Shown piece after piece: positions 7,570 to 30,084 of a DNA stretch of 32,366 nucleotides (positions are counted from its first letter, which is position 1; the number at the start of each line of letters is the position of its first letter). Under the pieces are notes generated by a model that saw only the letters and a program-made list of their open reading frames with translations, had not been told where the DNA came from and did no database searches. The position numbers were made by a program, and so were the translations under genes. The DNA is from Paracoccaceae bacterium (GTDB lineage Bacteria; Pseudomonadota; Alphaproteobacteria; Rhodobacterales; Rhodobacteraceae): positions 1-32,366 of the forward strand of contig JABDPT010000108.1 of assembly GCA_013042605.1 (NCBI GenBank), read 5' to 3'.

Positions 7570-8159
7570 GCGACCTAGCGCTGTTCACTCTCGCGATCGA
7601 CAGCAAGCTCCGCGTTTGTAACTTGGTTCGCCTCAAGGTCGCAGACCTCGTCGCCGGCGGCTCCGTACGGGACCGAGTATCGGTCATCCAAAGCAAAACC
7701 GGGCGGCCAGTTCAATTCGAAGTGTCTGAGAACAGGCGGATATCTATGCTTACGTGGGTCACATCCGCACCCGTGCTTGGTCAAGTATTCCTATTCCCAA
7801 GCAGGTTCCATGGTTCACCCCACATCTCAACACGACAGTATGCGCGTCTTGTGAATGACTGGGTGTCTGCCATCGGAATCGATCCAAGCGGATATGGCAC
7901 GCATTCTCTCAGGCGGACGAAGGCCGCCTTGATCTACCGGAAAATCGGAAACCTGCGCGCGGTTCAACTCCTACTCGGTCATACCAAGGTGGACAGCACG
8001 GTTCGGTACCCTGGCGTCGAACTGGAGGACGCGCTGAGCATCGCCGAGAAGATCGACATCCGTGGCCATGGCGGACGGCAGCAGTCGTCCGCCATTCTAC
8101 ACCTGACTTTGCTCAAACCTGACCGCATCGTCCGTTTCGAGCCCCTGCGCGACATTTGA
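7570..8159 (+). pseudogene. 5'-truncated tyrosine recombinase/integrase
   Basis: DLALFTLAIDSKLRVCNLVRLKVADLVAGGSVRDRVSVIQSKTGRPVQFEV...YGTHSLRRTKAALIYRKIGNLRAVQLLLGHTKVDSTVRYPG; HxLR, LLGH and Tyr present, N-terminal domain missing; reads in frame upstream of the listed ORF start at 7623. Confidence 0.75.
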
Positions 8160-9113: not shown

Positions 9114-9189
9114 TGGTGCCCCCACACGGACTCGAACCGCGGACCTACTGATTACAAATCAGTTGCTCTACCAGCTGAGCTATAGGGGC
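9114..9189 (-). tRNA. tRNA-Thr (anticodon TGT)
   Basis: Reverse complement GCCCCTATAGCTCAGCTGGTAGAGCAACTGATTTGTAATCAGTAGGTCCGCGGTTCGAGTCCGTGTGGGGGCACCA; cloverleaf stems, loop TTTGTAA, encoded CCA. Confidence 0.96.
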
Positions 9190-22956: not shown

Positions 22957-23106
22957 GACCGATCTCCTCCCGTTGAATTTGTTCTTTTTATTACGGGCAC
23001 TATCGCGCAAGGACCCGGACCTGTCAAAAGCCGTCTGCGTCTCGCAAAAGGCAGAGCGCGCCTGGGGCGCGCGCATGAAGTTTTGCGCCGCCTTCGGCGT
23101 CGCGGT

Positions 23107-23137
23107 GCCTCCGGCGGGGATATTTCCGGACCAAAGA
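23107..23137 (-). repeat. 31-nt post-stop element, copy 1 (after ScfR-like gene)
   Basis: Minus-strand TCTTTGGTCCGGAAATATCCCCGCCGGAGGC, 4 nt after stop codon; 28/31 to copy 2. Confidence 0.75.
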
Positions 23138-23141
23138 CCGA

Positions 23142-24452
23142 TCAGGCCGGATCGGCAAGGATCGAGGGTTCGCGGCGCGCCGCACAGGACCGGCGCGGGC
23201 AGATGCGGCAGCTGGTACCCACGGGCACGGGCCGTTCGCCGGGGATCGCGACCCGGTCATCCGGCAGGATCAGCATCGAGGCTTCGAAGACGGTGGGTCC
23301 GTCGAACCCTTGCGGATGCGCGGGCTGGGAGATGGCATAGGTGAGAAAGCGGCGCGGCGTGCGGCCCGGTTGTTCGACGACCTGGCGCACCGGGCTCATC
23401 GGGCGGCCCAGCGCCTGATAAAGCGGCAGAAGCGGACAGGCCGCGCCGAAGCGGGGCATGGGAAAGCCGTCGGTGGATTTCTGGAACGTCAGCGTGCCGG
23501 AGGCGTCGCAGATCACCAGCCCGATCCGGCCCTTGCCCTCGACCTCTGGCAGGGATGCAAGGCGGCGAAAGACCGACGGCAGATCGACAGTGAAACGCTG
23601 CGCCAGCAGCGCCGGTTCCAGCCCGACCTCTTCGACGGCCGCGAGCATGTCCTTCAGCGGCATCCGCTCGGCCTCTTGCCGGTAGCGCGCCAGATGCAGC
23701 GCCGCCAGCGCCCGGCTTGAGGCGGACGAGAGCGCATCGGCCCCCTGCACGATGGTTTCGATGGCGGGCGGCAGGGCGCGTTCGAGATCGGGCATGTGAA
23801 AGCCGGTGTCTTCCAGCCAGCCTTCAAGCTCTTCCTGCGGGGCCGAGGCCCCCCGCTCGGCATCCGCGCCGGCATCGAGGTAGTTGACGAGGGCGCGGCT
23901 GGCTTCGGTCAGACGCTCGCTGTCCTCGAAGATGTTACGGTGAAAGCGGGCCTGCCATTCGGGGTCGATCTCTTCATCGTCGGCGAGGATGGCGCTGGCC
24001 GAATGGATCGCGGTGACCGTGGACAGCACGTCATGGAGCGAGGCCGACAGGAACGGGTCGTGGGTGAGCCGGTCGTTCAGCGTTTCGACCGTGCGCTCAA
24101 GCGACAGGATGCGCCGTTCCTGCGCGGCAATCAGCCGGGCCCAGCCGGGAAAGCGGCCCGCAAGCTCTTCGCTGCGCGCGGCCTCGGCGCCGACGGTTCC
24201 GGCGCGGTCGGCGGCGCTGCGCAGCGCATCGAGCAGGGCGATGTCGGCGCCTTCGGAAAGCGACACAGGCTCGACCTCGAGCGCCTCGGCCAGATCGACA
24301 AGCAATTTGCCGCCGATTCTGCGGCGGTTGTGTTCGATGAGATTGAGGTATGAGGGCGATATCCCGCATTGCTCGGCCAATCGCGCCTGTTTCAATCCCA
24401 GATCGATCCGGCGTTCGCGGATGCGGCTTCCGGTCAGGGCGGATTTTGGCAT
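23142..24452 (-). CDS. XRE-family HTH short-chain fatty acyl-CoA regulator (ScfR/RamB-like)
   Basis: GSRIRERRIDLGLKQARLAEQCGISPSYLNLIEHNRRRIGGKLLVDLAEAL HTH; C-terminal GTSCRICPRRSCAARREPS cysteine cluster. Confidence 0.82.
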   Translation of the reverse strand: MPKSALTGSRIRERRIDLGLKQARLAEQCGISPSYLNLIEHNRRRIGGKLLVDLAEALEVEPVSLSEGADIALLDALRSAADRAGTVGAEAARSEELAGRFPGWARLIAAQERRILSLERTVETLNDRLTHDPFLSASLHDVLSTVTAIHSASAILADDEEIDPEWQARFHRNIFEDSERLTEASRALVNYLDAGADAERGASAPQEELEGWLEDTGFHMPDLERALPPAIETIVQGADALSSASSRALAALHLARYRQEAERMPLKDMLAAVEEVGLEPALLAQRFTVDLPSVFRRLASLPEVEGKGRIGLVICDASGTLTFQKSTDGFPMPRFGAACPLLPLYQALGRPMSPVRQVVEQPGRTPRRFLTYAISQPAHPQGFDGPTVFEASMLILPDDRVAIPGERPVPVGTSCRICPRRSCAARREPSILADPA

Positions 24453-28391: not shown

Positions 28392-29150
28392 ATGGGTATT
28401 CTCGAAGTCAAAGGCGTCAATAAACGGTTCGGCGGGTTGCAGGCGCTGGGCGATGTGAACCTCTCAGTCGAGGAAAACACCGTCCACGCCATCATCGGGC
28501 CCAACGGCGCGGGCAAATCGACCCTGCTCAACGTGCTCGTGGGCAAGCTGATCCCCGATACCGGATCGGTGATGTTCGACGGGCAATCCGTGTTGGGCCG
28601 GTCCCCGCACGAGATCAACCAGATGGGCATTTCCCGCGTGTTCCAGACGCCCGAGATCTTCGGCGATCTCACGGTGATGGAAAACGTGATGATCCCCTGT
28701 TTCGCGCGTCGCGACGGATCGTTCCGCCTGCATGCGTTCGAGACGGTGTTCAACGAAAAGGCGCTTGTCGAACAGGCCGAACAGATCCTGATCGACGTGA
28801 ACATGATCGACAAACGCGACATGCACGCGGCCTCCATGTCGCGCGGCGACAAACGGCGGCTGGAAATGGCAATGTGCCTTGTGCAGGAACCGCGGCTTCT
28901 GCTTCTCGACGAACCCACCGCGGGCATGGCGCGGGCCGATACCAACAACACCATCGAGCTGCTCAAGGAAATCAACGAAAAGCGCGACATCACCATGGCG
29001 ATCATCGAACACGACATGCATGTCGTCTTCAGCCTGGCCGAGCGGATCACCGTTCTGGCACAGGGCACGCCGCTTGTCGAAGACACGCCGGAAAACATCA
29101 AAGGGCACCCGAAGGTGCAGGAAGCATATCTGGGGCAAGCACATGGCTAA
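28392..29150 (+). CDS. ABC transporter ATP-binding protein (LivG-type)
   Basis: Walker A GPNGAGKST, LLLLDEPTAGMA Walker B. Confidence 0.92.
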   Translation: MGILEVKGVNKRFGGLQALGDVNLSVEENTVHAIIGPNGAGKSTLLNVLVGKLIPDTGSVMFDGQSVLGRSPHEINQMGISRVFQTPEIFGDLTVMENVMIPCFARRDGSFRLHAFETVFNEKALVEQAEQILIDVNMIDKRDMHAASMSRGDKRRLEMAMCLVQEPRLLLLDEPTAGMARADTNNTIELLKEINEKRDITMAIIEHDMHVVFSLAERITVLAQGTPLVEDTPENIKGHPKVQEAYLGQAHG

Positions 29151-29949
29151 TGACAGCAATCTTCTGGACAAATCCGCCGACAACGCGAACGCGTTGAACG
29201 AGCGTCCCGATTTCTCGGCCCATGCCAACAAGGCCACCACGGCGCCTGCCTATTTCTCGGTTTACGACATGCACGCCTATTACGGCGAAAGCTATATCGT
29301 GCAGGGCGTGAGTTTTACGGTGCATGAAGGCGAAATTCTCGCCCTTCTGGGCCGCAACGGGGCGGGCAAGACCTCGACCCTGCGCTCCATCGCCCGGATC
29401 GGCGACCCGGAAGTGACCCATGGAGAGATCTGGCTCGATCACCAGCCCCTGCACACGATGTCGAGCCACGAGGCCGCGCAATCGGGCCTTGGCCTTGTCC
29501 CGGAAGACCGTCGCATCATTCAGGGGCTCACGGTCGAGGAGAACCTCAAGCTCGCCCAGATCGCCCCGCCCATCGGCTGGTCGATCGACCGCATCTACGA
29601 TCTCTTCCCGCGCCTCGGCGAACGCCGAAACCAGGAAGGCACGACGCTCTCGGGCGGCGAACAGCAAATGCTCTCGATCGCCCGCGCGCTGGCCCGCGAT
29701 ATCAAGGTGCTGCTTCTCGACGAGCCCTACGAAGGGCTGGCCCCGGTGATCGTGGACGAGATCGAAAAGACCCTCACCCACATCAAGGAACAGGGCATGA
29801 CCACGGTCATCGTCGAACAGAACGCGGTGCGCGCGCTGCAACTGGCCGACCGCGCGGTGATCCTCGATACCGGGACGATCGTCTTTGACGGCACCGCCGA
29901 AGAGGTGCTCGACAACGAAGCGCTGCGCGCCGAATACCTCGCGATCTGA
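29143..29949 (+). CDS. ABC transporter ATP-binding protein (LivF-type)
   Basis: GRNGAGKTST, LSGGEQQMLSIARAL, LLLDEPYEGLAP; ATG at 29143 overlaps upstream gene. Confidence 0.92.
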   Translation: MANDSNLLDKSADNANALNERPDFSAHANKATTAPAYFSVYDMHAYYGESYIVQGVSFTVHEGEILALLGRNGAGKTSTLRSIARIGDPEVTHGEIWLDHQPLHTMSSHEAAQSGLGLVPEDRRIIQGLTVEENLKLAQIAPPIGWSIDRIYDLFPRLGERRNQEGTTLSGGEQQMLSIARALARDIKVLLLDEPYEGLAPVIVDEIEKTLTHIKEQGMTTVIVEQNAVRALQLADRAVILDTGTIVFDGTAEEVLDNEALRAEYLAI

Positions 29950-29963
29950 GCGACACCCCGGCC

Positions 29964-29994
29964 TCTTTGGTCCGAAAATATCCTCGCCGAAGGC
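29964..29994 (+). repeat. 31-nt post-stop element, copy 2 (after LivF-type gene)
   Basis: TCTTTGGTCCGAAAATATCCTCGCCGAAGGC, 14 nt after stop codon; same orientation relative to its upstream gene as copy 1. Confidence 0.75.
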
Positions 29995-30084
29995 CGCCCC
30001 GCCCCCCCCGGGCGGGGCCGAACGTCGTGCCGCGCGGAACGCGCGTCCGCTTGATAGCGGGCGGGGACGCGATAGGTTTGGGAC

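Follow-up and report, generated by a model that had tools for sequence, protein, structure and literature searches.

The closest known kinds of sequence to the element analyzed here are the REPs and the enterobacterial BIMEs. REPs are located mainly between convergent and co-directional genes, where they form opposed pairs, according to a study whose main text does not name Rhodobacterales (Di Nocera et al., 2013, PMC3733652), and REPs lying no more than 15 nt from a stop codon are cited as affecting translation (PMC12306157). As in the GTAG- and CGTC-tagged REP superfamilies, the element of this study is short, high-copy and intergenic, is situated behind coding regions and occurs as inverted dimers. 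As in the enterobacterial BIMEs, it is a mosaic of modules that alternates in orientation, sits at gene 3' ends and is also found inside operons; its modules, however, are unrelated in sequence to those of BIMEs. Our literature search, which covered the open literature with subscription journals largely outside it, found no description of this sequence or of Rhodobacter REP-like repeats.

The window, i.e., the whole stretch of 32,366 nt that was analyzed, contains two copies. The first 31 nt of copy 1 (TCTTTGGTCCGGAAATATCCCCGCCGGAGGC, minus strand, 23107-23137) begin 4 nt past the stop codon of the gene at 23142-24452(-), and those of copy 2 (TCTTTGGTCCGAAAATATCCTCGCCGAAGGC, plus strand, 29964-29994) begin 14 nt past the stop codon of the gene at 29143-29949(+). 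The sequence-only reading had described these two 31-nt stretches as 28/31 identical, both sense to the upstream gene and 4 and 14 nt past two stop codons, and each of these statements is exact (3 of 31 positions differ). Both distances fall within the 15-nt range cited for REPs (PMC12306157). In 100 dinucleotide shuffles of the window, no match with three or fewer mismatches was obtained. Pfam backed the calls of the two flanking genes: the first, predicted to encode an ScfR/HTH regulator, matched ScfRs and HTH, and the second, predicted to encode the ATPase of an ABC transporter, matched ABC_tran. Both copies run on into two more hairpins, to about 23056-23137 and 29964-30045, with the 31-nt span accounting for just the first third of each. 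The features of the two loci are as follows.

22999..23027, minus strand: promoter-like TTGACA-N17-GATAGT of the next gene (response regulator), by consensus only
23056..23072, minus strand: copy 1 hairpin 3 (GC-rich), from the sequence, stem read by hand
23085..23103, minus strand: copy 1 hairpin 2 (GAA loop), by arm detection; other copies have equivalent hairpins with different stems
23107..23137, minus strand: copy 1, module A (TCTTTGG type) and CCCGCCGGAGGC core, E 1.8e-9 to profile R1
23138..23144, minus strand: stop codon of the ScfR-like gene and 4-nt spacer before copy 1, from the sequence and Pfam
29964..29994, plus strand: copy 2, module A (TCTTTGG type) and CTCGCCGAAGGC core, from the sequence and from BLAST and profile searches
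29996..30018, plus strand: copy 2 hairpin 2 (GCCCCGCCC / GGGCGGGGC), by arm detection, stem ends read by hand
30031..30045, plus strand: copy 2 hairpin 3 (GAA loop), stem read by hand

In an Rfam search of the window, only a tRNA scored above the gathering score, and there was no match for the element. Elsewhere in the window, an ORF of the phage-integrase family (7623-8159) lies near a tRNA-Thr (TGT) gene (9114-9189), and the stretch from ~4.5 to 9.1 kb, where a local codon model gave a weak coding signal, is possibly a decayed integrated element.

The genome (G000) is a 3.54-Mb draft assembly of 318 contigs that is 94% complete. Whole-genome searches identified 42 places by BLAST and then 90 by sequence profile, and at least 87 copies, a lower bound given the draft assembly, were read with their flanks, including the two window copies. 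Common to all is module A (YTTCTTCTGGCnnnAAATATYCC or, as in the window, a TCTTTGG variant), and in each copy one of two hairpin modules is attached to it. Its usual forms are CTTCTTCTGGCnnnAAATATCC and GTCTTCTGGCnnnAAATATTCC; the type of the window copies, TCTTTGGTCCnnAAATATCC, is rare (6 copies). The class I ending, found in both window copies, is CCCGCCGGAGGC, commonly followed by AYCGCG-hairpin-CGC-AAAACATC-ATG-hairpin, while the class II ending is CGGGGG-hairpin-GGGGGCAGCGCCCCC. Base -1 and base +7 of module A are perfectly linked into two subfamilies (G-T 45, T-C 34, mixed 0 among 79 copies; Fisher 4e-23), and each subfamily is found with both hairpin classes, which is expected if module A was copied as a unit and the endings were exchanged. 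In Phaeobacter inhibens DOK1-1 the two linked bases are A and C. Thus, the link is a lineage mark, not a rule.

A REP is a palindromic stem-loop of 20–40 bp; the element of this study has a mostly linear core, and in class I and class II copies GC-rich hairpins of variable sequence are appended to it. The element differs from REPs in having neither the GTAG tag nor a CCA tail. The letters CGTC are present only in the G/T-type copies of module A, where they do not precede an 8–9 bp stem starting with A-T pairs; the window copies read TCTTTGG and the T/C-type copies CTTCTTCTGG. The REP-like inverted arrangement is found in all 17 of 17 close pairs, although most copies, unlike those of BIMEs, are singletons and only a minority are paired. 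The idea that single copies are decayed inverted pairs was rejected, as few of them have a recognizable second arm. All seven close pairs of G000 (L024, L027, L033, L020, L197, L200, and L032) have the module A ends facing inward, and both arrangements are present in genome G191. Two near-perfect inverted pairs, L165:3853-3918 and L332 (G003), have arms of ~20–33 nt and a loop that is A/T-rich or unrelated, and would form a bidirectional A-stem-T palindrome. These AAATA-GC stem-loop-TATTT palindromes resemble bidirectional intrinsic terminators, but single copies, inspected on either strand, have no U-run behind their hairpins.

The statement in the sequence-only reading that similar strings occur in roseobacter intergenic regions, and that the sequence may be common, was borne out by a wider search. 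The exact 19-mer AAATAYYCCCGCCGGAGGC is found in 138 of 199 Rhodobacteraceae genera (the reversed control gave 0 matches in every genome) and in none of ~285 genomes from ~150 other alphaproteobacterial families, with copy numbers of up to at least 163 per genome. Across genera the upstream half reads TTCWTYTKG, so that the bipartite core, TTCWTYTKG-N4/5-AAATAYYCCCGCCGGAGGC, is 33 nt long and has a near-invariant 19-bp part at a fixed spacing in many genera. In G191 this core stands without a consistent hairpin module, and hairpins therefore cannot be the whole function. A near-invariant core over the whole family leaves room for a clade-specific binding protein, in which case a putative Rhodobacteraceae-specific factor would recognize the 33-nt core in either orientation at gene ends and act as a transcription roadblock, an insulator or a supercoiling/nucleoid factor, setting transcript ends or chromosome organization between genes; gyrase or IHF on BIMEs provides the comparison. 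The clade restriction and fixed spacing of the core, its independence from hairpins in G191 and a dyad (YCGCCGR) whose columns 23/29 show C-G/T-A co-change are consistent with such a site. We nevertheless consider it a rather doubtful explanation, both for the element as a binding site and for the factor proposed to read it. Against the binding site, the copies are readily gained and lost (see below) and no replichore strand bias relative to GC skew was seen in G201, where the skew is weak in the sampled stretches. If true, the proposal would mean that the clade as a whole has a gene-end system with no relation to RAYT/REP.

Gene context was read in the stretches around the copies, with genes called by a home-made codon model in which single starts may be wrong and stops are reliable. 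On this basis, the G000 copies comprise 37 in convergent gaps, 37 in co-directional gaps (14 sense and 23 antisense), 6 in divergent gaps and ~3 inside called genes. Relative to local intergenic bp, a background drawn from stretches chosen for carrying copies, convergent gaps are enriched (p 2e-10) and divergent gaps depleted (p 3e-6). The pattern recurs in G191, where 29 of its 163 copies could be assigned, with 16 in convergent gaps, 5 sense and 8 antisense in co-directional gaps and none in divergent gaps. The corresponding counts are 7, 0, 7, and 0 in G201 and 4, 3, 6, and 1 in G003. The location typical of REPs, between convergent or co-directional genes and outside coding sequence, is thus that of the element in G000 and G191, and the gene 3'-end location proposed from the two window copies holds for the genome at large.

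The strand does not follow. Both window copies are sense, 4–14 nt from a stop codon, and had been read as a gene-sense 3'-UTR signal for termination, processing or stability. In co-directional gaps of the four genomes, antisense copies outnumber sense copies 44 to 22 (binomial p = 0.009 toward antisense), so both window copies are in the rarer orientation. The reverse would be expected of a 3'-UTR element that acts in the sense strand, and such a role is not supported. The sequence-only reading had held that a lack of enrichment or of strand bias after stop codons would tell against it; genome-wide, the sense bias is lacking, and the association with stop codons stands. In favor of a sense-strand role, the class I 39-nt stretch of G000 has a better fold in the sense orientation (mean z -1.07) than in antisense (-0.09). 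Its first stem, CUUCUGGC/GCCGGAGG, was considered as a conserved structure and rejected, as it pairs in 95.6% of cells in G000, no more than in shuffles, shows no covariation in G000 and is not conserved across genera. The gene-sense reading is thus largely refuted and now very improbable. An orientation largely independent of genes is, on the other hand, what a binding site recognized in either direction would allow.

An even more remote explanation is a DNA uptake sequence like the DUS/USS of Neisseria and Haemophilus. The element is a short conserved motif, dispersed across the family and sometimes found in inverted pairs behind genes, and members of the Rhodobacteraceae carry gene transfer agents. 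It is, however, present in ~87 copies per 3.5 Mb with almost none in coding sequence, and such a low copy number and near-absence from coding sequence are unlike uptake sequences as generally known. We regard this explanation as having almost no likelihood.

Across genera the core has no conserved stem; hairpins, which vary, are present in copies of both classes. Because MAFFT/RNAalifold misaligned the variable hairpins of full composites, an arm-swap test was used in their place, and it supports the appended hairpins, in contrast to the first stem of class I: each hairpin-2 arm kept 5.5 of 6 pairs when matched with the arm of the same copy and 2.9 with arms swapped between copies, the own values being biased upward by the choice of arms for pairing. 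In class II copies the lengths of the G-run and the C-run correlate (rho 0.71). In class II copies such as L211, L214, L219, and L229 of G000, the lengths of the first G-run, the second G-run and the final C-run covary, which suggests that two G-runs compete for one C-run. Stem wobbles are symmetric between the strands (35 vs. 36) and thus give no evidence that RNA of one strand is under selection. At convergent ends in G000, few canonical terminators are found (7–9%), and their frequency is the same with or without the element, so that the element as a replacement of canonical terminators was rejected. In the sampled stretches of G000, the median length of convergent gaps that lack the element is 17 bp, and canonical terminators occur at ~7% of ends.

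Comparisons of orthologous loci demonstrate that the sites turn over, with copies gained and lost at orthologous positions. Among 44 relatives, the ScfR locus has a recognizable sister copy in only two (one with a different inverted pair and one with a reverse copy); in most, the predicted promoter of the gene that follows (TTTTGACA...GATAGT) is close behind the ScfR stop codon and the element is absent, while the window has the element between the two. The element is located between rfbB and rfbD, antisense, in Leisingera caerulea S216, and between gcvH and gcvP, sense, in P. inhibens DOK1-1. Both sites are likely inside operons, where a strong terminator would be unexpected. At the rfb site, Phaeobacter and Tritonibacter retain related elements with changed hairpins, which in others have been replaced, and the gcvH-gcvP gap of P. 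inhibens strain P30 has other hairpins. In rfbB-rfbD gaps without the element (L272-L275 and L279), other long GC-rich hairpins are found, and on some plasmids the gap has an extra hydrolase gene. Plasmid matches in Rhodobacteraceae are mostly outside annotated genes.

This turnover at the strain level, the presence on plasmids, and the subfamily linkage with shuffled modules would also suit a mobile repeat of a purely selfish kind, spreading in the form of single-stranded hairpin DNA, with positions behind genes the only ones tolerated. So would the triloops, which on the element's own strand are of the GNA type in 28 cases and of the TNC type in none, whatever the gene orientation; the GNA triloop is very stable in single-stranded DNA. 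Loop polarity could, however, simply come along with the copy, and conservation of the core over the whole family is unusual for such a repeat. Furthermore, the Y1 HUH transposase (RAYT, PF01797) was found in 0 of 16 element-carrying genomes, with control genomes positive, and an IS91-type Y2_Tnp in only 1 of 16. The lack of a Y1 transposase sets these genomes apart from the REP-RAYT system, although the CGTC REPs of alphaproteobacteria have no dedicated transposase either (PMC3733652). A purely selfish repeat is judged an improbable account.

The element is dispersed, modular, located at gene 3' ends, loose in orientation, and gained and lost. We consider it, with moderate confidence, to be one copy of a modular intergenic repeat that is REP-like and dispersed, occurs only in the Rhodobacteraceae and gives 3'-end hairpins in either orientation, with a function that we infer. 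Copies of this REP-like repeat would have spread as units via an activity, either an enzyme or a factor, that recognizes module A, and would be kept at gene ends where the hairpin or a bound protein is useful or at least harmless. The useful role may be to mark a 3'-end boundary for transcripts arriving from either side or to stop them bidirectionally. The copies are not a gene-sense regulatory signal, and annotators should not take single copies for gene-specific regulatory motifs.

Canonical intrinsic terminators are scarce in G000, and transcript ends in such GC-rich alphaproteobacteria are poorly mapped. A clade-wide, near-invariant gene-end element without a known enzyme is a concrete target for finding what binds or copies the element, with AAATAT and GCCGGAGGC as the core stretches singled out for scrambling in a search for the binder, and for determining whether the element sets the 3' ends of transcripts.
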